Shown: one piece after another, positions 11,403 through 52,043 of the stretch
How the letters are laid out: every line of letters starts with the position of its first letter
How positions within the stretch are numbered: the first letter of the stretch is position 1
Virus record (IMG/VR): IMGVR_UViG_3300020578_000017
Location: 52,450 to 116,449 of that record
Length of the DNA stretch: 64,000 bases
Reading direction: 5' to 3' (one strand)
DNA from: a virus
Program-made: the position numbers and the translations under genes
Notes under the pieces: generated by a model
What the model saw: the letters and a program-made list of their open reading frames with translations, nothing else
Database searches by the model: none
Told to the model about the DNA's origin: nothing

Positions 11403-11408
11403 GAAAAA

Positions 11409-11438
11409 GGGCCTGTTAGGTATTTACCTAACAGGCCC
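11409..11438 (-). terminator. Intrinsic terminator after the fibronectin-domain gene
   Basis: A perfect 14-base inverted repeat (GGGCCTGTTAGGTA and its complement, 2-base centre) is followed on the minus strand by CCCTTTTTCT. It separates the virion-type gene from the primase operon. Confidence 0.92.
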
Positions 11439-11453
11439 CAGTCTCTGTGTTTA

Positions 11454-20126: not shown

Positions 20127-20142
20127 ACAAACGCAAAGTAAA

Positions 20143-20174
20143 AGGCGGTTACACCAATTAAAGTGTAACCGCCT
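20143..20174 (-). terminator. Intrinsic terminator after the SSB gene
   Basis: A 12-base perfect inverted repeat (AGGCGGTTACAC/GTGTAACCGCCT) with an 8-base loop is followed on the minus strand by TTTTAC. It closes the single-gene SSB transcription unit that starts at the box at 20994. Confidence 0.88.
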
Positions 20175-20198
20175 CTGTCCTCTATTTAGTTTATTTTA

Positions 20199-39831: not shown

Positions 39832-40072
39832 CAATGCCTGAAATCGCAGTCAAAACATCTCTTACTGCATCTGCTTCATAATCCTGAAAAGGCTCTGGGT
39901 CCTTTACGATATGAAGACCTCGCTTTTTACTTGTACGAGCAAGCAAACGGGAGTCATCACCAAAATCAATATCTAGATTGTCAATTACTTTCTGAAGTTC
40001 CTTTGTTGTATCAAAGTCACCTACAACTTTAATCCAGATAGGCTCTTCAGTGTTGTTATCATTATACGACAT
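39779..40072 (-). CDS. Small hypothetical protein upstream of the clamp-loader genes
   Basis: The protein has 97 residues from ATG 40072; a TTG start at 40114 would add 14 residues, but neither has a good SD. It contains a ferredoxin-like alternation of strands and helices (IWIKVVGDFDT, LYFSYELET). Its 3' end overlaps the Cas4-like gene start. No family is recognised. Confidence 0.55.
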   Translation of the reverse strand: MSYNDNNTEEPIWIKVVGDFDTTKELQKVIDNLDIDFGDDSRLLARTSKKRGLHIVKDPEPFQDYEADAVRDVLTAISGIDELYFSYELETSESFGF

Positions 40073-40140
40073 GATATGTAATATCTTTTTCCTTTTATTA
40101 GTTACTACCGCCAAACCAATATAGTAAATACTGGATTCTC

Positions 40141-40572
40141 ATGATAAAGAATTTTCTAGCAACTGCTGTACTTCTTTGCTCTACCTACAAACCTGTTGAA
40201 TATCCTAAAAATATGGAAAGTCCACATTTTCATGTACAGGAAAATGGAGATGGCATCAAGTACTGGATAGTTCTAGAACCAAAGTGTGTAGTAGAAACCG
40301 TATACACCAAAGGCGATCCAATAGGAACTGAAATTACAATACTTGACCCAGAAAATACCGATCAAAAATCGATAGTTAATTTTGTCAACTCTATCGAAGG
40401 TATCGATCAAGAAACTTATCCTATGACCTTTGCCGGTATGAATGAAGATCATTCTCAAATGTATACGCTAACAAGCAGCGAACACATACTTTTGTGGAAA
40501 CGTAATCCTTCTACCGAAAAGATAGAAAAGATTATCATTGTCTACCACAAACAGAATGAGTTACACTTTTAA
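40141..40572 (+). CDS. Hypothetical protein with a possible signal sequence
   Basis: The protein has 143 residues. The N-terminus (MIKNFLATAVLLC) is a short basic-hydrophobic segment that could be a signal peptide; the Cys context does not fit a lipobox. The rest is beta-rich and acidic (IKYWIVLEPKCVVE, TILDPENTD). It is a lone plus-strand gene overlapping the papain-like gene convergently by 12 bases. Function is unknown. Confidence 0.6.
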   Translation: MIKNFLATAVLLCSTYKPVEYPKNMESPHFHVQENGDGIKYWIVLEPKCVVETVYTKGDPIGTEITILDPENTDQKSIVNFVNSIEGIDQETYPMTFAGMNEDHSQMYTLTSSEHILLWKRNPSTEKIEKIIIVYHKQNELHF

Positions 40573-41343
40573 AGCGTAACCTTCGATAAACATAAACTTG
40601 AACAGGTAGTACGGTAAATATCCGTAACCATGATCTCCCCAGCTTTTGCTCCAGGAGTTTCTGATAGTAAACCTTTGAAATAGGTCATCATACCCGACGA
40701 TAGTCACGGCGTGCTGGCCTATTTTCTTTCCATTTTTATCAGGAGGTGAAATCTCACCTGTCCGATAAACAAAAACCCCAAACAGGCTCTCATACACATC
40801 TAACAAGACAGCTACTGGTAGACCTTCTACCAAGCAAGCTTTGACTTCTTCTAACCTTTCAAGTCTGTAAGCTTTTTTAACTTTTGCAGATCTTGCTAAC
40901 ATTTCTATTTCATCGCTGCCATAAGATTGCAAAGTAGCTAAATTGTGTTCACCTAATCTTTCAGGACAGCAACCTTTAGTTCTTAGAACTTCAATTGCGT
41001 CTACAAAACTGGTAACTGTATTTCTTGAGTCAATGAAAAGGGCATTTTTGTCTTTATCATAAACATACAAAGAAGAAAGTCTATAGCTTTTTTCTGGGTA
41101 AGCCTTCTTAAAAACAAACTCAAGACAACCACTAACAAGAGAAATACCGATAGAAGATTCAATTGGACCTTGATCCATGACTTCTTCAAAAAGATTGGAA
41201 TCTCTTAGATCTACCTTCAAGGGTTTTTTGGCTAGAACCTTGAAAATATTTCTAAAAGCATATCTGTCAGTAAGTAGTAATCTCTTTAGATCTCTCTTAC
41301 TAGCTGAAGCTTTTACAGTATACACAGTATTTTTAGGTTTCAT
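40561..41343 (-). CDS. Papain-fold (C1A) protein with Ser in the catalytic Cys position
   Basis: The protein has 260 residues. The C1A layout is plain: VDLRD then DQGPIESSIG (57-66), where the usual G-S-C is replaced by E-S-S64. His211 in QHAVTIVGYDD and Asn229 in IRNSWSKSWGDHGYGYLP are intact. There is no propeptide and no signal peptide. The Cys-to-Ser change (codon TCT) would make it a poor cysteine protease, so it is either an inactive binder or a serine-based enzyme as in silicateins. It is preceded by a ~390-base region with a putative promoter. Confidence 0.85.
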   Translation of the reverse strand: MKPKNTVYTVKASASKRDLKRLLLTDRYAFRNIFKVLAKKPLKVDLRDSNLFEEVMDQGPIESSIGISLVSGCLEFVFKKAYPEKSYRLSSLYVYDKDKNALFIDSRNTVTSFVDAIEVLRTKGCCPERLGEHNLATLQSYGSDEIEMLARSAKVKKAYRLERLEEVKACLVEGLPVAVLLDVYESLFGVFVYRTGEISPPDKNGKKIGQHAVTIVGYDDLFQRFTIRNSWSKSWGDHGYGYLPYYLFKFMFIEGYALKV

Positions 41344-41734
41344 CTAAGAAATTAGTTTCAATAGAAACTTACTAAATTGTCAAAGTACTTTATTAGATCT
41401 TTTTATGATCTGAAAGATTTAATTTAATCACCTTACTACTAATCATACTCTTGAACGTTTTGAACTTCGTCTTCTTGCTTATCAGCTTTATCGTACTTGT
41501 TCTTATCGTCTTCGTCGTCGTCAACTTATTCGTCTTAGTTTTTTTTTAAAGTTTGATCCCTTTGGGATAATTCCAAAGTTAGATAGTTATCTACTTACTT
41601 GAATTGAAGTTCCGTGAGTAGCTGTAAGGAACGGATTGGTTTGCTTGACCGTGTACCGTAGCAATTTTCTGCTCCGTCTTCCAACTCCTTATAGGAGATT
41701 TACTGGAATCTTTTGAAAGAAATTATGAAAAAAT
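41344..41734 (-). other. Gap without a clear gene; acidic frame with three TAA codons
   Basis: No intact ORF is visible. One minus-strand frame from TTG 41684 to TAG 41439 has sensible stretches but three in-frame TAA codons (41597-41595, 41537-41535, 41528-41526). Its last 28 codons read as a very acidic peptide (VDDDEDDKNKYDKADK). A nine-A run, a small CTTTGG/CCAAAG hairpin and a TATAAG box at 41688 are also present. It could be a decayed gene or the long leader of the papain-like gene. Confidence 0.4.
41688..41693 (-). promoter_or_regulatory. Putative -10 box upstream of the papain-like gene
   Basis: TATAAG in TCTCCTATAAGGAG is on the minus strand. The CTCCTATAA context equals that of the recA box at 19171. 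It would give a ~340-base leader. Confidence 0.45.
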
Positions 41735-42076
41735 TTACAGTTCGCCGTCTTTGACGAGACCAGATTCTTCGATGAAACCTGTCGAAAAGTACTCAATAAG
41801 ATAAACATCAAGAGCTTCGTCAGGAGTAGAGTCACGATGCTCTCCTGTCTCCTGGCTGTAAATATCGTAATACGTATTTACCAAGAACAAGTCAAACTTC
41901 GTATTGACAAGAAGAGGCATCAAGCCTGTCTCTTTGAAATATCTTTCTATTTGTCCAAGATGTAAAAAATGTACGATGTTTTCCGTATTTTTTACTTTAT
42001 AGCTTTTACCGCCGAGAGATGCATATAGTGAAACTTCTCTGCGTACTAAGCTGATATCTTTCTTTGGAGGTTTCAA
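41735..42076 (-). CDS. Hypothetical protein
   Basis: The protein has about 113 residues. It starts at TTG 42076, 6 bases after GGGAGG (a second TTG at 42079 is 3 bases after it). The sequence (SLYASLGGKSYKVKNTENIVHFLHL) is not recognised. It is preceded by its own -10-like box at 42096 and ends next to the leader of the papain-like gene. Confidence 0.6.
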   Translation of the reverse strand: MKPPKKDISLVRREVSLYASLGGKSYKVKNTENIVHFLHLGQIERYFKETGLMPLLVNTKFDLFLVNTYYDIYSQETGEHRDSTPDEALDVYLIEYFSTGFIEESGLVKDGEL

Positions 42077-42095
42077 CAAATACCTCCCTTTACGG

Positions 42096-42101
42096 ATAAT
42101 A
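42096..42101 (-). promoter_or_regulatory. Putative -10 box
   Basis: TATTAT in ACACTATTATCCG is on the minus strand, 20 bases before the TTG start at 42076, with the SD GGGAGG between. There is no visible -35. Confidence 0.4.
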
Positions 42102-42125
42102 GTGTTGTTACTCTAACCTAAAATA

Positions 42126-42590
42126 TCAAAGAATCTTGGAAGACAAAACACAACCTGTCAGAAATTCTGCATCCTGAGGCTCTACACGGCCCTGTATGAC
42201 TTCTTTTAGAACGTCTAGATACTTCGGGAGGTTGAGTATTTCTGATTGAACCTCAAGCCTCTGAGATTCCCTTTCAGCAACATCCTCTACCTTGCCGACT
42301 CTTTTGAAGGTTGGTGCATGCTCTGAGTACAAGGATACTGTCTTCAGGCTATTAATGTTTATGTTTCCCTGGGCAGTTTCAAAAGCTTCTCTGTCAAGAC
42401 AATGATGAAAAATTCCATAATGTAAATTTTCTGGTGTTAGCTCAATGAACTCATCGAATGGCTCTAACCAGAAAAGATGAATGTCGATGTAGAAGCCATC
42501 TTGTTCGTGAGAATGGCGAAACCAACCTTTGAACTTAGTCCCGATCTCATCGCTTAGAGAGACCCAGGAATCATTCATCATAGTTTGCAT
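42126..42590 (-). CDS. Hypothetical protein
   Basis: The protein has 154 residues. It contains aromatic-rich strands (GFYIDIHLFWLEPFDEFIEL) in the first half and an acidic helical second half. The ATG at 42590 overlaps the upstream gene by 20 bases; ATGs at 42581 and 42578 would reduce the overlap. It is the last gene of a five-gene minus-strand run starting at 43724. Function is unknown. Confidence 0.6.
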   Translation of the reverse strand: MQTMMNDSWVSLSDEIGTKFKGWFRHSHEQDGFYIDIHLFWLEPFDEFIELTPENLHYGIFHHCLDREAFETAQGNININSLKTVSLYSEHAPTFKRVGKVEDVAERESQRLEVQSEILNLPKYLDVLKEVIQGRVEPQDAEFLTGCVLSSKIL

Positions 42591-42849
42591 CTTGTTCTTC
42601 CTGCATGGAAATCATACTTGCAATAAGTCCTGTTGCTCTGTACGTTTGTAAAAAAGCATCTTCTGGTCTTATATTCATATATAGTAAAGGTTGCCCTTTG
42701 TCAGGAACTACAATAGAAATTATACCTTTTAGAGTAATATCTTTTGTTTCTTCTACGATTGCATCAAATAACTCTCGGGTTTTTTCGTCGTTATACTTTG
42801 AAACATCGATAACCTTGAAAGACTTAATCTTCTTTTTCTTCTTTGACAT
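42571..42849 (-). CDS. Hypothetical protein
   Basis: The protein has 92 residues. A Lys-rich start (MSKKKKKIKSF) is followed by a compact alpha/beta-looking body (IISIVVPDKGQPLLYM). Both ends overlap neighbouring genes (26 bases with the DUF1003 gene), suggesting co-translation. No family is recognised. Confidence 0.6.
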   Translation of the reverse strand: MSKKKKKIKSFKVIDVSKYNDEKTRELFDAIVEETKDITLKGIISIVVPDKGQPLLYMNIRPEDAFLQTYRATGLIASMISMQEEQDANYDE

Positions 42850-43204
42850 TACTCTTACTCAATCTTTTGATAAGGTATTCAATTTTATCTAGCTTGTCAG
42901 CTATTTCTGCAACCGATAGTCTGTTTTCAAGATTACTTACATAAGACTCTTCCAAGGTTTTACGATCTCTATCCGCTGCTCTGTTTTGACTCATAAGAAC
43001 AAAACAAGCTGAGATAGCAGCTTCCGTAGATAAGGCAAGATTTAAAAAGATGAATGGAAAAGGATCAAAGACATAAGCGCTACCTGACGTATTGAAGGTA
43101 ACCCAAGCTATTATAAGAATAGCATGAAAAATAAAACCTTTCCAACTACCTACAAAGTTGGTTATATTATCACTTAAATGTTGTGTTAAAGATTTTTTTC
43201 TCAT
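42824..43204 (-). CDS. DUF1003-type membrane protein
   Basis: The 126-residue protein matches the DUF1003 layout: an entry segment (ITNFVGSWKGFIF), TM1 (IFHAILIIAWVTFN), the FDPFPFIFLNLALSTEAAI loop/TM2 with the conserved D-P-F/Y-P-F and E, then MSQNRAADRDR and a coiled-coil tail. The family occurs in bacterial inner membranes with no established biochemical function. Its presence in a phage suggests a membrane-level effect on the host, such as superinfection interference; that is inference. Confidence 0.85.
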   Translation of the reverse strand: MRKKSLTQHLSDNITNFVGSWKGFIFHAILIIAWVTFNTSGSAYVFDPFPFIFLNLALSTEAAISACFVLMSQNRAADRDRKTLEESYVSNLENRLSVAEIADKLDKIEYLIKRLSKSNVKEEKED

Positions 43205-43413
43205 TTACTGGCCTCAAACTCATCAGAAAGATGATTTCTGAAACATTCTTTACAAAAAGTGTATTGTTTTTTATATTTTCTGGTATCAGATTTCTTTGTT
43301 ACATAAAAAACATCTGCGTGAGTCATTAAATACTCCAGGCAGTTGGCACAATAAGATATTGCTCGTTCTGGTGCGTCAAAAGCGGATAGCTTCATTCTGA
43401 TTCGAAAAATCAT
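43201..43413 (-). CDS. Small zinc-ribbon-like protein
   Basis: The protein has 70 residues. Two C-x2-C pairs (CANC near residue 22 and CKEC near residue 54) are separated by about 28 residues, a zinc-ribbon spacing. The intervening part is basic and aromatic. The stop overlaps the DUF1003 start by 4 bases. Partner and target are unknown. The ATG is at 43413; an internal ATG seven codons later is possible. Confidence 0.65.
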   Translation of the reverse strand: MIFRIRMKLSAFDAPERAISYCANCLEYLMTHADVFYVTKKSDTRKYKKQYTFCKECFRNHLSDEFEASK

Positions 43414-43724
43414 AGGACGCTTCCAAAGGTAGGGGGAAGCGGAACGGGTGACATTGGCACAGGAGTGACGCTGACTTGTGCAGCAGGGCTACCAGCAGTG
43501 GATATGGTCCCTGGTGGAGCAATCAGTGCCGGTGGAATAGTCACGTTAACCTGAACCATGATGTTCTGAACAAAATCGGCAATAGCGTTGGATAACTCTG
43601 CAGCAAGTTCTTGAGCTTGAAGTTCGGCAGGCTTGTTAGTTTTTGAGTTCTGAACAGAGTTAAGGTAAACCTGAGTGAGCCTTGCCTGAAGCGCTAATTT
43701 ATTTACTGCGTGTGGAATACCCAT
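43410..43724 (-). CDS. Small virion-like protein with Pro-rich tail
   Basis: The protein has 104 residues. A helical N-terminal half (ELAAELSNAIADFVQNIMVQVNVTI) is followed by a Pro/Val/Ser-rich C-terminus (VSVTPVPMSPVPLPP). This composition resembles small phage structural proteins, but I cannot name a family. It is divergent from the pyrimidine operon leader; the ATG at 43724 is about 30 bases from that operon's putative -10 box. Confidence 0.6.
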   Translation of the reverse strand: MGIPHAVNKLALQARLTQVYLNSVQNSKTNKPAELQAQELAAELSNAIADFVQNIMVQVNVTIPPALIAPPGTISTAGSPAAQVSVTPVPMSPVPLPPTFGSVL

Positions 43725-43754
43725 AAAATTTCTTATACTTCTTTCGTTTCTCGC

Positions 43755-43760
43755 TTATAC
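43755..43760 (+). promoter_or_regulatory. Putative -10 box of the pyrimidine operon
   Basis: TTATAC in TCGCTTATACAAG is on the plus strand, upstream of the leader peptide; a second TTATAC lies 22 bases upstream (43733). There is no clear -35. The transcript would begin just before the leader ATG at 43779. Confidence 0.4.
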
Positions 43761-43778
43761 AAGAATAAGGTAATCTAA

Positions 43779-43832
43779 ATGTTATATCGAAATAACTTTA
43801 TTCAAGGACTAGCTTACCACGCCGGAGCCTAA
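43779..43832 (+). CDS. Leader peptide of the asparagine/pyrimidine operon
   Basis: A 17-codon ORF (MLYRNNFIQGLAYHAGA) is preceded by AAGG 8 bases before the ATG. Its stop codon (43830-43832) lies in the loop of the following terminator, and its last codons form the 5' arm of that stem. A ribosome finishing this peptide would cover the stem and block it. The leader is U-rich (TTATAT, CTTTATT), which would slow polymerase at low UTP. Codons 5 and 6 are two consecutive Asn codons. It is too short to be found by length cut-offs. Confidence 0.65.
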   Translation: MLYRNNFIQGLAYHAGA

Positions 43833-43850
43833 TGGCTCCGGCTTTTCTTT
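43821..43850 (+). terminator. Attenuator terminator in the pyrimidine operon leader
   Basis: GCCGGAGCC (43821-43829), loop TAAT and GGCTCCGGC (43834-43842) form a 9-base-pair GC-rich stem followed by TTTTCTTTT. It is active only in the plus direction (no U-tract on the minus strand) and sits upstream of, not after, the plus-strand genes. The next SD (AGGAG) begins 14 bases after the stem. This is the expected layout of a transcription attenuator. Confidence 0.88.
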
Positions 43851-43870
43851 TAACCAGGAGAATTTTATTA

Positions 43871-44908
43871 ATGAATACACACCAGCAAAAAGTAGCCCTA
43901 TTTAAAATGGCAAGCTCAGCCCTCAAGGGTGCGAGAAAATACCTAGATAGCCATAACTTCCATGATGTATCATTACAAATGCCTCACATCGTAGGCGTAA
44001 CTGGCGCTTGTGAGAATGTCAGTACTCTATTTAAAGTCGATTATTTTGGCAAGGAAGCTTTTTTGGCTCAGAGTAACCAACTTTACTTGGAGCTTTGGAC
44101 TCCACATTTGTTTAACGTATCTTGTTTAGTTCGTTCTTTCCGTGCAGAGCCAGATGTAGATGCCAGGCATCAAACTGAGTTTGGCCTACTTGAATTAGAG
44201 CTACTAGGCAACCTGGACCTTCTAATCGAAAGAATTAGTGGTACTGTGAGAGCAGCTTGTAATGAGGTTGCTTGGAATCACGGTGAAGAGCTAAATAATC
44301 TTTTTGGTCGCAATCCAAAAGATATCACAGACCTAAAATTCCAAAGAGTCACTTATGTTGAAGCTATTGAACTACTTAATCAAGATAAGTTCCCAGAACT
44401 AAAGTTTGGTGACGACCTAAAGGCAGATCACGAGCTACGTTTAACTGAGCTTCTAAACGGCCCAATCTTCATTACGCATTACCCCAAGGAAATCAAGTTC
44501 TTCAATATGAAGGCAAACGCTCAGAACGATAGACTAGTCAACTCAACAGACTTGATTCTTCCCTTGTCTGGAGAGTCTGCTGGCGCCGCTGAGCGTGAGA
44601 CTGACGTTTTCCAGATTTGCGAGAAGCTTCTCAGCAACAGCATGTACCGAATCCTCAAGGAGACAACCAATGTCCAGGACGAAGACTTCGACTGGTACCT
44701 CAACGCCCACCTTGAGGAGCCCCAAGAAAACGTATTGAAACTTTACCGCGAGCATATAATCAATGGGACTTCTCCCTTGAAGGCGAAGAAGATTCCACTA
44801 CACAGTGGCACGGGTATGGGCATGGATCGAATCATGCAGTTCATCATCGGTTCATCTGATATTCGTAAAGCAAGAGTATATCCCAGAAATGCAGCCTGCC
44901 TCGAATAA
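43871..44908 (+). CDS. Asparaginyl-tRNA-synthetase-like enzyme without anticodon domain (likely asparagine synthetase)
   Basis: The protein has 345 residues. It is a class II synthetase catalytic core of the Asp/Asn type: motif 2 region LVRSFRAEPDVDARHQTEFGLLE and motif 3 GTGMGMDRIMQFIIG with the YPRN end. The N-terminal OB anticodon-binding domain (~100 residues) is missing. Archaeal AsnRS paralogues of this shape make asparagine from aspartate (AS-AR, Pyrococcus abyssi); the same activity is likely here. The ATG at 43871 follows AGGAG. The second half (from ~44500) is visibly GC-richer than the first. Confidence 0.8.
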   Translation: MNTHQQKVALFKMASSALKGARKYLDSHNFHDVSLQMPHIVGVTGACENVSTLFKVDYFGKEAFLAQSNQLYLELWTPHLFNVSCLVRSFRAEPDVDARHQTEFGLLELELLGNLDLLIERISGTVRAACNEVAWNHGEELNNLFGRNPKDITDLKFQRVTYVEAIELLNQDKFPELKFGDDLKADHELRLTELLNGPIFITHYPKEIKFFNMKANAQNDRLVNSTDLILPLSGESAGAAERETDVFQICEKLLSNSMYRILKETTNVQDEDFDWYLNAHLEEPQENVLKLYREHIINGTSPLKAKKIPLHSGTGMGMDRIMQFIIGSSDIRKARVYPRNAACLE

Positions 44909-45584
44909 GTTAGCTGAAGCAATCAAATACAAGAAAACACATCTTTGTATCGGAATTGATCCTCCAGAGAAGTGTTATCCTTCAAAGATTGTCGATATAG
45001 TTAAAAATACCAAAGATTATTGTGTAGCCTATAAGATTAATTTGGCTCACTTTATTTCTAAGACTTCGTTTTACGAGCTATATCAAATAATTTCAGAAAT
45101 TACATCAATATGTCCTGAAAATGTTCTCATTCTTGACGGCAAGTTTGGTGACATTGGTTCAACAAATGATTACTATGCAAAATTGAATCAAGTAAAACAT
45201 ATTGACGGACTAACTTTAAACCCATACTGCGGCATAGATAACTTAGAGCCCTTCTTTAAACAGGAGGGCTCGCTCCATTTTGTATTAACAAGAATGTCTC
45301 AACCTAGTTTTGTACAGACTAGAGAAGTTTGTACAGAAATAGTAAAACAAACCAAAGGTCGTTGTGGTTATGTTTTAACCACAAGAGAAGAAGACTACTT
45401 CGACCTGGTTTGTGATCTTGCAGAAGATAGTTTTCTTCTTCTAGTTGGTATTGGTGCTCAAGGAGGAAAGATTAGCTTAATGAACAAGATTAAGCATAAT
45501 AACTTCATCTTTAACGTTAGTAGACCCTTCTTTGAAGATGAAAACGTAGTTAACACAGCAAAGTTTTATGCCGGAATCAAATAA
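44889..45584 (+). CDS. pyrF: Orotidine-5'-phosphate decarboxylase
   Basis: The 231-residue enzyme converts OMP to UMP. The active-site set is complete: D24 (CIGIDP), K49 (AYKIN), D83-x-K85-x2-D88 (LDGKFGDIGSTN), the NPYCGID strand, GIGAQGG and R212 (VSRPF) for phosphate. I chose ATG 44889, which overlaps the upstream gene by 20 bases; the frame is open further upstream but only inside that gene. It is translationally coupled to both neighbours. Confidence 0.92.
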   Translation: MQPASNKLAEAIKYKKTHLCIGIDPPEKCYPSKIVDIVKNTKDYCVAYKINLAHFISKTSFYELYQIISEITSICPENVLILDGKFGDIGSTNDYYAKLNQVKHIDGLTLNPYCGIDNLEPFFKQEGSLHFVLTRMSQPSFVQTREVCTEIVKQTKGRCGYVLTTREEDYFDLVCDLAEDSFLLLVGIGAQGGKISLMNKIKHNNFIFNVSRPFFEDENVVNTAKFYAGIK

Positions 45585-46143
45585 ACCACCAGCTATTAGA
45601 ATGTTTGAAACCTTTGGGGTTATAAACAAAGGTCACTTTCAACTAAGCTCCGGTAAGCATTCAGATACTTATCTACAATGTGCAAAGTTAGATGCTAGTC
45701 CTTATGCACTACTTTCTATTGCGGGTAAGTTATTCGACCAAAACCTTATGTGGAAGCATGATGTAACCCATGTAGTAGCTCCTGCTATGGGAGCGGTTCT
45801 TTTTGGTTATACTTTGGCACTAACCATGTCAAAAACATTTATGTACCTGGAGCGTGAAAACGGTGCTCTTACTTTTAGAAGAGGATTCAGCCTCCCTGAA
45901 GGTGCAAGAGTTTTATGCATAGAAGATGTAGTCACAACTGCAAAAACAATGAATGAAGTTGTGAGCATTGTAAACTCTTATGGTGCAAAAGTTGTAGATA
46001 GAGTTTGTATCGTCAATAGAAGTAATGACGATAGCTTAAAGAGCTTTGTAAAGCTAAAAGTAGAAACATGGGACCCAGAAGAGTGCCCCATGTGTGAAGA
46101 AGGCAAGATACCGGCTAGTTATCCGGGAAGTCGTAAGATCTAG
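45568..46143 (+). CDS. pyrE: Orotate phosphoribosyltransferase
   Basis: The 191-residue enzyme joins orotate and PRPP to OMP, the step before PyrF. Motifs are SSGKHSDTYLQC near the N-terminus, the PRPP loop LCIEDVVTTAKTM (117-128), ENGALTFRRGF and a C-terminal ECPMCEEGKI ... YPGSRK. The ATG at 45568 overlaps pyrF by 17 bases. The end overlaps the convergent gene by 29 bases. Together with PyrF it completes UMP synthesis from orotate. Confidence 0.92.
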   Translation: MPESNKPPAIRMFETFGVINKGHFQLSSGKHSDTYLQCAKLDASPYALLSIAGKLFDQNLMWKHDVTHVVAPAMGAVLFGYTLALTMSKTFMYLERENGALTFRRGFSLPEGARVLCIEDVVTTAKTMNEVVSIVNSYGAKVVDRVCIVNRSNDDSLKSFVKLKVETWDPEECPMCEEGKIPASYPGSRKI

Positions 46144-46315
46144 TATTGTCACCAATGACCTGAAGTGTGTGTATTCTAGATTGCAGGCAACGGTGAAGAT
46201 AATTATTTTGCTTCTTAGAGATAACTCTCTTCTTTTTTCGAGTAACCGTATACTTCGGTACGATTCTTAGAAACAAGCTAACAAGTAAAGCAAAAGTAGC
46301 TATAAGTATCTTCAC
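46115..46315 (-). CDS. Small membrane-anchored protein candidate
   Basis: The protein has 66 residues. An N-terminal hydrophobic segment (KILIATFALLVSLFL) is followed by a basic tail (TVTRKKKRVISKK). The start is GTG at 46315, 4 bases after the HNH gene, without a clear SD. It overlaps the end of pyrE on the other strand. It could be a small inner-membrane effector; evidence is limited to composition. Confidence 0.45.
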   Translation of the reverse strand: MKILIATFALLVSLFLRIVPKYTVTRKKKRVISKKQNNYLHRCLQSRIHTLQVIGDNTRSYDFPDN

Positions 46316-46319
46316 TTAG

Positions 46320-46844
46320 CTAAAAGTCCTTCCAAAAGTCTGAGTAAGATTCACCAACGCTATAGTCCTTGAGTTTTATGATAGGCATATTAGCCTCTTC
46401 AGGGGTCATATTTGCTTTTTTATTATTGCAAGGGTTACAACACGTCACCAGGTTATCCCAAGAATCCTGACCGCCTCGTGATTTAGGTATGATGTGGTCC
46501 AGAGTAAGCGCAGACTTAGATCCGCAATACTGACAAGTGTATCGATCACGCTTTAGTATGCCATTTCTGGACGGAGCTGTTCTTGACTTCAAGAACTTCT
46601 TGTCTACGGGATGTATAAGCCTGATACAGAATGGAATCTTGAAGGTATCTCCGCTGACTAGTTCTTGAAGATGTGTAGGAAATACGAACCTTCGGTTCCT
46701 ATTAAGTTTAATAAACCCTACGTACTTACCTTGAGTATGCTCCGCTGGTATGGCGCGGCCCGTAATCAGCATAATGACAGTGCGCCTAGCATCCAGCTTA
46801 GCTAGCGGGATGTAGTAACTGTCTATCAGGATGGTACTCTGCAT
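46320..46844 (-). CDS. HNH endonuclease
   Basis: The protein has 174 residues. The C-terminal half has a zinc-type HNH: CQYCGSKSALTLDHIIPKSRGG ... CCNPCNNKKAN, with both C-x2-C pairs, the catalytic DH and the final N/H-like position. The N-terminal ~85 residues (RRTVIMLITGRAIPAE) are of the type found in stand-alone HNH genes of bacteria and phages. It does not interrupt another gene. Role: nicking/cutting DNA, possibly a free-standing homing or anti-rival nuclease. Confidence 0.85.
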   Translation of the reverse strand: MQSTILIDSYYIPLAKLDARRTVIMLITGRAIPAEHTQGKYVGFIKLNRNRRFVFPTHLQELVSGDTFKIPFCIRLIHPVDKKFLKSRTAPSRNGILKRDRYTCQYCGSKSALTLDHIIPKSRGGQDSWDNLVTCCNPCNNKKANMTPEEANMPIIKLKDYSVGESYSDFWKDF

Positions 46845-46916
46845 CTACAAACCTGAACAATAAAAGACTTCTTAACTGTCTATAGTAGAGCAGAAGAGAG
46901 GAGGTTAGTTTATTCT

Positions 46917-47357
46917 ATGAATGCCTTAGATCAAACTAAGAATCCAGAGCTGATTTCAAAAATAGCTGCCGTGGCAAACTCATGCAAAGAGTCTTTTCCA
47001 AGGGCTGAAATACTTCTAGACCCTTTCAATAAAGAAACGATGGGTGAAAGCTGGGAAGACTACGTAGAGATGACGCAGAACTCTGTAGACCTGGCTATTA
47101 AAACAAAAGCTGGAGTGTTCTCTATCTACATTGTAGGTCAGGAAGAAGACCTTAAAAAGTGCCAGTTTGTTTGTATAGATTACGTTTCAGATAATCTTCA
47201 ACATGTATGGGAAGCAGAGTTTGACTTTCTAAAGAAGACAAAGAAAGAACTAATGCTTACCTGTAAAGAAAATGGAAACATTCCTAGTTACCTAAGAAGC
47301 AAGATCAATGATCTTTGCGGGAAGCTATTTTATATCTTTGACCCTTTAGCTAAGTAA
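46917..47357 (+). CDS. Hypothetical protein
   Basis: The protein has 146 residues and a mixed alpha/beta sequence with an acidic first half and no motif I recognise. AGGAGG precedes the ATG at 46917 (12-base spacing), and a TATAGT box lies about 45 bases upstream. It is divergent from the HNH gene at 46320 and overlaps the second HNH gene convergently by 28 bases. Confidence 0.65.
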   Translation: MNALDQTKNPELISKIAAVANSCKESFPRAEILLDPFNKETMGESWEDYVEMTQNSVDLAIKTKAGVFSIYIVGQEEDLKKCQFVCIDYVSDNLQHVWEAEFDFLKKTKKELMLTCKENGNIPSYLRSKINDLCGKLFYIFDPLAK

Positions 47358-47734
47358 GCTAAAACTACTCTTGAAACAGCGCTGCTCTTTTCCATGCTGC
47401 GCTCTAGCTTCTTTTTGGCTTTATAGTCCTTCTGAAGTACATCAGGGACATCTTTAGTTTTACGTATCTTATCAGAGATCGTATCTCTAATTAAACCAAG
47501 CTTTGGATCATCTACCCAAAGCTCTAGGTTTCCTATATTATTGTTGTCCTGTACGCCATCTTTGTGCTGAACTTGTTCGTTATTACGCAAGAATCTACCT
47601 AAGTATTGTTCCATAACGAGACGGTGCTCGTATATGTAACCGTTGCTCATCGCATTTGGATGATCAGGTAAATAAACCCAGACATAACCGTTAGAGTTTT
47701 CTGGATTATCATCGGCAAATTTTATAAGGCCCAT
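47330..47734 (-). CDS. HNH_3-type endonuclease
   Basis: The protein has 134 residues. The HNH_3 core is visible: NGYIYEHRLVMEQYLGR, then EQVQHKDGVQDNNNIGNLELW, giving His, His/Asp-Gly and Asn-Asn-...-N-L positions. The C-terminus is a basic helix. This family includes phage free-standing homing endonucleases. It overlaps the previous gene convergently. It is unrelated in sequence to the HNH at 46320. Confidence 0.8.
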   Translation of the reverse strand: MGLIKFADDNPENSNGYVWVYLPDHPNAMSNGYIYEHRLVMEQYLGRFLRNNEQVQHKDGVQDNNNIGNLELWVDDPKLGLIRDTISDKIRKTKDVPDVLQKDYKAKKKLERSMEKSSAVSRVVLAYLAKGSKI

Positions 47735-47759
47735 ATAAGAACTTTTTATAAAATTTATA

Positions 47760-47969
47760 TCAAATATGCATACACTTATTTAAGTGCTCAATTAAGTCCC
47801 GTACCACCATTTTCTTTGTGCTTGCAGGTTTATCATCCCTTCCAATTATGCCAAGCACAGAATGCTTTATTTTAAGATTTACTACCTTGACAGCGATATC
47901 GTCTTCGTAATCATTTTCTAAAAGGTAGTTCTTGTATTCAGATAGACTGAAAATGGTATCGTCTTTCAT
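47760..47969 (-). CDS. Small hypothetical protein
   Basis: The protein has 69 residues with an acidic start (KDDTIFSLSEYKNYL) and a short basic/hydrophobic end. A TATAAT (47985-47980, minus strand) lies 10 bases before its ATG at 47969, which would leave a ~4-base leader. No family is recognised. Confidence 0.5.
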   Translation of the reverse strand: MKDDTIFSLSEYKNYLLENDYEDDIAVKVVNLKIKHSVLGIIGRDDKPASTKKMVVRDLIEHLNKCMHI

Positions 47970-47980
47970 ATTTGTTAAAA

Positions 47981-48955
47981 TTATAGTTCTTTAAAAACGT
48001 CCTTGTTTCGTAAAGAAATAAGAGCCGGAATAAATAAATCATCAACAGCTTCACTGCACATATCTAGAAGATCGTTAGACTCTAATTTTAGTTTTCTGCT
48101 TGGTATAAAATACTCATCACTCTTTATTCCAGATATTTCTACTGAAAATGAAGTTTTACTGCCTAACTTTATTTCTGAAAAATCTAAACTAATGGTAATA
48201 GTAAGTTTTTTTACCTTTCTTAAGAATCCTGCTTTACTTTCCAGGGATACTGGAATTTTTAATGATAGAGTGTTGACAATTGTCTTATTCGTTTCATTTT
48301 CTTCAGATCCTACAACACGGACAATCTTATCTAAGGTAGAAATGTTCGTAACAGCACCTCGGGTCAAAGAGTCAAGGGAAAAGTAAGATTTCAATCTAGG
48401 GTTAGCCTGAATTTCTTTACTTAAAATGCCTAAAGTCATCTGCACGAAAGTCTTATACCAGAAAGACTTTGTTTTAACTTCTACAGGCCTCTTTTCATCC
48501 TGTATTTCGTCACTGAACTCTTGCCTAAGAGCTTGTAGCTTTTTTCTATTTTCGGCAATTTCATTTGAGCTAATAACACTATCTAAAGCTTTGCCTGGGA
48601 ATAGTTTTTTTAGCTTTTCTATCGCTTCATCAATATCGGCAATACCTAAAACATCAATGATTTCATCAAGAGTCATCCCTTTAGAAGTATCATCAATGGA
48701 ATCAAAAAAAGCCTTGCTTAAAGCTCTTGTTTGAATGAGATCAACAATATCACTCTTAAGCTTATTTTCAGTTTCGCCTTCATCTATGCCATCTCTTATT
48801 AGTTGAGAAACGGCATTCGCGATTTGGGCAATATGCTGATTAAGCTGCCTAGTAAAACCAGATTTTTCCTTAGTAGACGTATCTATTTTAGTTTTTCTGA
48901 TTTTATTTGAGAGTTGCAGCTTAGCAAACTGCATCAGATCAGATTCTAAAGACAT
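47981..48955 (-). CDS. Hypothetical protein paired with the 48955 gene
   Basis: The protein has 324 residues. The first ~170 are helical with an amphipathic start (SDLMQFAKLQLSNKI); the C-terminal ~130 look beta-rich (KKLTITISLDFSEIKLGSKTSF). The ATG at 48955 overlaps the stop of the upstream gene by one base. The pair could be virion or inner-head proteins, but no family is recognised. Confidence 0.65.
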   Translation of the reverse strand: MSLESDLMQFAKLQLSNKIRKTKIDTSTKEKSGFTRQLNQHIAQIANAVSQLIRDGIDEGETENKLKSDIVDLIQTRALSKAFFDSIDDTSKGMTLDEIIDVLGIADIDEAIEKLKKLFPGKALDSVISSNEIAENRKKLQALRQEFSDEIQDEKRPVEVKTKSFWYKTFVQMTLGILSKEIQANPRLKSYFSLDSLTRGAVTNISTLDKIVRVVGSEENETNKTIVNTLSLKIPVSLESKAGFLRKVKKLTITISLDFSEIKLGSKTSFSVEISGIKSDEYFIPSRKLKLESNDLLDMCSEAVDDLFIPALISLRNKDVFKEL

Positions 48956-50013
48956 TATTTACCTTGTAACTTTTTAAGCTCAGAAAGTAAGATATCTTTT
49001 TTAAATCCTGCAGCTAAAGCTTTGAAATAAAGCTGTTTAGCCTTTTCTACTTCGTTCCGTTTACCTAAACTGTGCATTCTTAAAGCAATATTTTTTGCAT
49101 TTGATAACTTTGGCTCATCCTCTCTTCTTTCAATAAGATATTTCCGAGTCTTATTATCAGTTGTACCATCAGACTTAGCCTTAACATCATCCTTTAAAGG
49201 TTCGTCTGAAAATTTAAGTTCTGTCTCTGGCTTAATCTTATCCCAATACTTGACTTTATCACGTGGGTATTTTTTACGGGCCAAAGGAATTAGCAAAGAT
49301 AGAGCGACGTTATGGTTATTTTTCTTAAGCTTATCCAAGAAGGAGTAAAGATAAGGAGACTCAGAAGCCATTTCAGCTCTGAATAAGAACTTCAAAATTT
49401 CCTGGGACAAATCAGAGTTGTCAAATGGATGACGTGCTGCAATTTCTTCAAAAACATCTAAGAAAGCCATCTTATCTTTTTTGAATGCGTGGTTTATTTG
49501 CTCAATTAAACCTTTTTGATGCATTAGGTCAACAAGCCTATCATCAGTCAGGAACTTCTTCACCCATAAAGAATTATCTTTATTTTTAGATAGCATGTTA
49601 CCCAAGTAATCAGCTACAGAAGCTCTGTCTAATGGATAAGGGTCACCATCCTCTTCGATAATATAAACCTTACCGCCCTTAGCAGCGGCGTTATCTAATA
49701 TCTCATCGTCAGGTATTCTACCGGCTCGCAAAGCTTGCATAAAGTTTGTAGCCCTTGTTTTTCTGTTTTCACTTGGTTCAAGGGTAGGTACAAATACAGG
49801 CTTCGCTTTAATTTTAAAGTAGTCATTCAAAAAATCTAGCTGTTCTTCAGAGCTAGAAACTTTCAATACATCTGGCAAAGATTTCTGTACAAAGTTAACC
49901 ACATGTGCAACTTTTGCATGCTGCTCATGGGTTGTCATAAGATCATTTTGAATGTGAATCAAATCTGTTTTGATCTGATTGTATGTTTTTCGATCAAATA
50001 AATTATCTTGCAT
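48955..50013 (-). CDS. Hypothetical helical protein
   Basis: The protein has 352 residues, mostly helical, with a charged linker (residues ~270-300) and a C-terminal TPR-like stretch (ALRMHSLGKRNEVEKAKQLYFKAL). The ATG is at 50013. It lies downstream of the terminator at 50067 and forms a two-gene unit with the 47981 gene. The first codon region resembles no family I know. Confidence 0.65.
   Translation of the reverse strand: MQDNLFDRKTYNQIKTDLIHIQNDLMTTHEQHAKVAHVVNFVQKSLPDVLKVSSSEEQLDFLNDYFKIKAKPVFVPTLEPSENRKTRATNFMQALRAGRIPDDEILDNAAAKGGKVYIIEEDGDPYPLDRASVADYLGNMLSKNKDNSLWVKKFLTDDRLVDLMHQKGLIEQINHAFKKDKMAFLDVFEEIAARHPFDNSDLSQEILKFLFRAEMASESPYLYSFLDKLKKNNHNVALSLLIPLARKKYPRDKVKYWDKIKPETELKFSDEPLKDDVKAKSDGTTDNKTRKYLIERREDEPKLSNAKNIALRMHSLGKRNEVEKAKQLYFKALAAGFKKDILLSELKKLQGK

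Positions 50014-50444: not shown

Positions 50445-52043
<1,599 letters not shown>

Follow-up and report, generated by a model that had tools for sequence, protein, structure and literature searches.

A candidate translation-coupled attenuator, with the leader stop codon in the terminator loop, ahead of pyrF and pyrE in a phage

How is an operon for UMP synthesis expressed in a phage when a strong intrinsic terminator stands directly ahead of its first gene, and what is the role of the short open reading frame (ORF) that runs into this terminator? We examined this locus in a window of 64,000 nt (the whole stretch of DNA presented here), which is part of the 116,449-base virus record that was analysed. 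The first-pass annotation had described a 17-codon leader ORF with a Shine-Dalgarno sequence (SD), a stop codon in the terminator loop, last codons forming the stem, and pyrF and pyrE downstream, and had interpreted the whole as an attenuator of the pyrBI/pyrE type. The physical layout so described is present, and its features are as follows.

43410–43724, − strand: divergent ORF of 104 aa with no Pfam match, the start of which bounds the intergenic leader region.
43763–43803, + strand: weak hairpin GAATAAGGT / ACTTTATTC, in which the leader SD pairs with codons 6–9 (−6.1 kcal/mol).
43767–43770, + strand: AAGG, Shine-Dalgarno-like, 8 nt before the leader ATG, read directly and scored as an SD.
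43779–43832, + strand: leader ORF of 17 codons, MLYRNNFIQGLAYHAGA followed by a stop codon, bounded on its 5′ side by an in-frame TAA at 43776–43778.
43821–43842, + strand: intrinsic terminator hairpin GCCGGAGCC-TAAT-GGCTCCGGC (−20.1 kcal/mol), present as a single copy in the contig.
43843–43851, + strand: T tract of the terminator, TTTTCTTTT.
43856–43860, + strand: AGGAG, SD of the first operon gene, read directly.
43871–44908, + strand: AsnRS-like class II catalytic core of 345 aa, without an anticodon-binding domain (PF00152, E 3.4e-36; match to PDB 1x54).
44889–45584, + strand: pyrF, orotidine-5′-phosphate decarboxylase (PF00215, E 2.2e-18; TIGR02127, E 1.9e-24, below cut-off).
45568–46143, + strand: pyrE, orotate phosphoribosyltransferase (TIGR01367, 153.0 bits, above the cut-off of 150.25; PF00156).

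The terminator stem is a perfect 9 bp closed by a 4-nt loop, and the hairpin is more stable than expected by chance (z = −6.9). The ORF and the hairpin overlap: the last three sense codons of the leader (Ala-Gly-Ala) encode the 5′ arm of the stem, and the leader stop codon (TAA, 43830–43832) supplies the first three bases of the loop. Only 42 nt separate the leader ATG from the start of the hairpin. The upstream hairpin at 43763–43803, a candidate for sequestering the leader SD, was rejected; its z of −2.4 was obtained against shuffled sequences, but 38% of random 44-mers from the contig are equally stable. No Rfam leader or riboswitch family gave a covariance-model match at E values up to 5 within 40000–50000. 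Promoter-like matches near the leader are no commoner than in shuffled sequences. The motif CTATAAT is enriched before genes of the contig (5 seen versus 0.8 expected), and TTATACT at 43733–43739 resembles it, a likeness that is no proof of a promoter. CTATAAT itself occurs ahead of four − strand genes (starts at 50013, 19131, 20966 and 24390), where such sites are possible phage promoter elements; in the first of these genes, TATAAATA directly adjoins the start codon.

Downstream of the leader, the three + strand genes overlap one another, with the pyrF ATG sitting within the 3′ end of the AsnRS-like gene and 17 nt shared by pyrF and pyrE; from this arrangement on one strand, pyrF and pyrE are probably cotranscribed. 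The first gene had been called asparagine-synthetase-like, and while a gene is indeed present at this position, its best match is instead the catalytic core of AsnRS. The best NCBIfam match of the protein is likewise asparagine--tRNA ligase, at a score below cut-off. The core lacks the anticodon-binding domain that full-length phage AsnRS of other large phages retain. Three identities are conceivable for the protein: a truncated AsnRS, a paralogue of the asparagine synthetase type, or an adenylating enzyme that acts on its own. The operon forms an island of + strand genes amid a mostly − strand region, with HNH endonuclease genes on the − strand just past it (46320–46844 and 47330–47734), and may have been inserted recently. 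Elsewhere in the window, 50445–52043 encodes a 532-aa protein that by eye resembles a GroEL chaperonin (...TLGPKGRNV).

Whether the terminator at 43821 ends a gene or precedes one can be judged against the other terminators of the contig. A relaxed search returned nine strong terminators, counting as strong those with a proper T tract and a hairpin of about −17 kcal/mol or below, and the one at the contig end (63842–63875) was left out of the comparison of neighbours. The other eight have a known upstream neighbour, and seven of them lie 8–32 nt behind a same-strand stop codon. The terminator at 43821 is alone among the eight in having no same-strand gene upstream; the nearest upstream gene is divergent and starts at 43724. 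On its downstream side, only 28 nt separate the hairpin from the operon ATG, and this gap contains the T tract and the SD, with no −10-like element. Since a promoter would not fit into these 28 nt, transcription of the operon has to run through the terminator, and we infer this passage as the firmest part of the case. The hairpin is thus probably a leader terminator and, because no same-strand gene lies ahead of it and no promoter fits between it and the operon, most likely a leader attenuator. Two other strong terminators, 20141–20176 and 11408–11439, are followed by a same-strand gene start after only 14 and 21 nt, and the genes behind them may depend on readthrough or may have their true starts further in.

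The same comparison bears on the idea that the leader stands alone as a mini-gene or small RNA that ends at this terminator, and that the operon is served by an unrecognised promoter or by readthrough only. The ORF does have a start codon, an SD and a terminator, and other terminators of the contig do end genes. However, the other strong terminators begin 8–32 nt past the stop codon and not in it, the T tract and SD occupy the space in which an operon promoter would have to lie, and an exact degenerate pattern for the peptide finds no homologue in IMG/VR. We consider this reading highly unlikely.

A related question is whether an ORF of this kind would arise by chance in front of such a hairpin. 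We kept the hairpin and dinucleotide-shuffled the 96-nt leader, with the stop triplet held fixed since it lies in the loop, and counted ORFs that start with ATG behind a 4-nt SD, span 8 codons or more, and end inside the hairpin or no more than 12 nt from it. Such an ORF appears in 0.3% of shuffled leaders and in 3.6% of random contig stretches. The excess over chance is suggestive, not conclusive, the figure of up to 3.6% being modest.

These frequencies can be read in two ways. Partial terminators and antitermination are common in phages, and the terminator could be leaky or phage-antiterminated, setting the level or timing of the operon with the short ORF incidental. This is in keeping with the general habits of phages, with the up to 3.6% of contig stretches in which an ORF with an SD ends in or near the hairpin by chance, and with the presence of another contig gene only 14 nt behind the strong terminator at 20141–20176. 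On the other side, chance would seldom (0.3–3.6%) yield a 17-codon ORF with an ATG and an SD whose stop codon falls precisely within the loop. We regard an incidental ORF as a somewhat unlikely explanation, although it is one that carries appreciable weight.

If the ORF does take part in regulation, the manner in which it could do so is constrained by the lack of a competing structure. At best, the upstream leader pairs with the 5′ arm of the terminator at −5.2 kcal/mol, which is weaker than the mean of −7.9 kcal/mol for random stretches, in agreement with the earlier remark that no strong anti-terminator is seen. With no antiterminator, ribosome occlusion or a trans-acting factor remain as means of opening the terminator.

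This result bears on asparagine sensing, which the first-pass annotation had entertained as a second input on the basis of two adjacent Asn codons. These codons are present (Asn5-Asn6, 43791–43796), and the first gene of the operon is AsnRS-like; both could be taken in favour of amino-acid attenuation. A ribosome stalled at 43791–43796, however, would cover the transcript to about 43811, some 10 nt short of the stem at 43821, and would leave the stem free; scarce asparagine would then keep the terminator on and shut the operon, which is the wrong sign and disfavours this mechanism. In addition, there is no mutually exclusive antiterminator helix, two adjacent Asn codons in 17 are a 4% event in the proteins of this phage, and in amino-acid attenuators the leader stop codon and the terminator following it are kept more than 20 bp apart (PMC4824070). 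Amino-acid attenuation by asparagine is hardly credible.

UTP sensing of the pyrBI/pyrE type makes a more specific demand on the leader. In such a device, low UTP causes polymerase to pause at U-rich leader sites, the ribosome gains on it and keeps the terminator from forming, and the genes for UMP synthesis are turned on. The phage locus shares with E. coli pyrBI, and its leader pyrL, a leader ORF that runs into an intrinsic terminator, a ribosome position that would be decisive, pyrimidine genes downstream and the lack of an antiterminator; it also has a stop codon that overlaps the hairpin. Yet the U-rich leader reported earlier does not hold up: T makes up 31.7% of 43739–43842 versus 31.5% of the window, and T runs before the hairpin reach at most 3. 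The critical 37 nt between exposure of the ribosome site and completion of the hairpin are C-rich (6 T, 13 C, 11 G and 7 A). What T-rich sequence there is lies ahead of the ATG and has already been transcribed by the time a ribosome can load, so slowing there would not help the ribosome to catch up. By comparison, pyrL has 44 codons, 88 nt from ATG to hairpin with a T5 run (GTTTTTCTTCCC) in the approach, and a stop codon beyond the terminator, whereas the phage leader has 17 codons, 42 nt and a stop codon in the loop. The pyr genes are also second and third in the operon, after the AsnRS-like gene. A toy kinetic model found no U preference for the phage leader and none for the pyrL control either, and so cannot discriminate. 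Together, the short T runs, the C-rich 37-nt stretch and the placement of the T-rich part before the ATG mean that the defining U-rich pause is absent. The earlier proposal thus survives in part: the geometry is that of an attenuator, with a transcript that crosses the terminator, a stop codon in the hairpin and no antiterminator, but the leader sequence does not support the label of a UTP sensor, and we judge UTP sensing itself distinctly unlikely.

The alternative that fares best, with roughly even chances of being correct, is a leader attenuator that is coupled to translation and works by direct occlusion. Within it, occlusion of the 5′ arm by the ribosome is the best-supported switch, because there is no competing antiterminator and the stop codon lies inside the hairpin. 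Transcription of the operon would start at a putative promoter within 43725–43778, and the strong intrinsic terminator (43821–43851) would halt most polymerases by default. If ribosomes load on the 17-codon ORF fast enough relative to polymerase, a ribosome would reach the stop codon in the loop, cover the 5′ arm and block the hairpin, allowing readthrough into the asnS-like gene, pyrF and pyrE. Expression would be expected to rise with faster initiation on the leader ORF or with slower polymerase over the next ~40 nt, for example through a shortage of NTPs late in infection. In this scheme the promoter, termination in the cell, translation of the leader ORF, readthrough that depends on the ribosome and the signal to which the device responds are all predictions.

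Direct occlusion has precedents. Termination dropped from ~90% to <10% once a stop codon, at first 28 bp ahead of a terminator, was placed 5 bp from it, and the effect was lost when translation was removed (PMC4824070). In the pil1 leader of Streptococcus gallolyticus, a stop codon inside or near the hairpin turns the operon on in a translation-dependent manner (PMC3894217). Given the 42 nt between ATG and hairpin, default termination is expected in the phage leader, with readthrough if polymerase is slow or initiation is fast. Several considerations count against its working in this way. In E. coli, a terminator located in the first ~100 bp of an ORF escapes repression unless polymerase pauses (PMC4824070). 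No pause signal is evident in this short leader. The device would also require a host that couples translation to transcription. The lack of an excess of promoter-like matches and the modest chance figure for the ORF weigh on the same side. Finally, the collections searched yielded no relative that has the leader, so that selection cannot be shown for either the ORF or the hairpin.

Among known systems, pil1 is one of the closest: it combines translation-dependent opening of a terminator with a leader stop inside or near the hairpin and needs no metabolite, and the phage leader would act likewise. The two differ in that pil1, which serves another kind of operon, is controlled by phase variation of a GCAGA repeat that is absent in the phage leader (PMC3894217). 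The E. coli rph-pyrE attenuator also couples translation to an intrinsic terminator before pyrE, but its leader is the full gene rph, whereas the phage has a mini-ORF and pyrE as the third gene. Attenuators of the his/trp type share the short leader ORF ahead of a terminator, and the phage leader differs from them in having no antiterminator, a terminator not more than 20 bp past the stop codon, and only two Asn residues as cognate codons. In a phage element, translation of nested genes reportedly controls termination in the immunity region of phage P4, as Forti et al. 1999 are said to have described. The two cases would have in common that translation controls transcription termination; P4 differs in that the control lies in an immunity region and, reportedly, in architecture. 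A limited literature search returned no described phage case of such geometry before metabolic genes. The leader is, from its sequence, a plausible further case of the known direct-occlusion attenuators.

Relatives were sought with exact peptides of the terminase, portal, AsnRS-like and PyrE proteins and with DNA. No close relative was found among INPHARED phages (DNA or protein) or in IMG/VR (protein), and patterns for the leader peptide and the exact hairpin had no match in IMG/VR. A terminase alignment yielded 80 distant relatives, a wide assortment of large phages with identities of roughly 30–35%. OMP decarboxylase (PF00215) occurs in three of the 50 larger records of this group (G006, G021 and G039), and in none of 37 further records consisting of smaller ones and AsnRS-bearing ones. 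No terminator hairpin lies directly upstream of the three pyrF genes; as gene order differs in these records, this neither supports nor refutes the device. Relatives of the AsnRS-like protein in IMG/VR and GTDB genomes are at most 34% identical. The IMG/VR relatives inspected are full-length AsnRS with no same-strand leader terminator, and no pyrF or pyrE match was found beside any of these. In two of the distant large phages, G039 and G021, pyrF and pyrE are fused (L097:6515–7639 and L098:6887–8026, respectively), and the fusion has a neighbour whose start (VIGGQWGDEGKGK) by eye resembles adenylosuccinate synthetase. The fusion and its neighbour suggest wider nucleotide synthesis in this phage group.

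A more specific form of the direct-occlusion reading is that the phage has evolved a minimal attenuator that opens its UMP operon when nucleotide depletion in the course of infection slows polymerase, with neither a U-run pause nor an antiterminator, and that thus senses the general pace of ribosome relative to polymerase rather than UTP; we consider this form unlikely. Should the leader not work by occlusion, it would be no more than a leader terminator of the usual sort, preceded by an ORF that arose by chance. Having no parts but one mini-ORF and one hairpin, the locus offers a small and simple setting in which to test direct occlusion by the ribosome. Under the proposed mechanism, a lytic phage would be setting the timing of its nucleotide synthesis by the pace at which host translation and transcription run.
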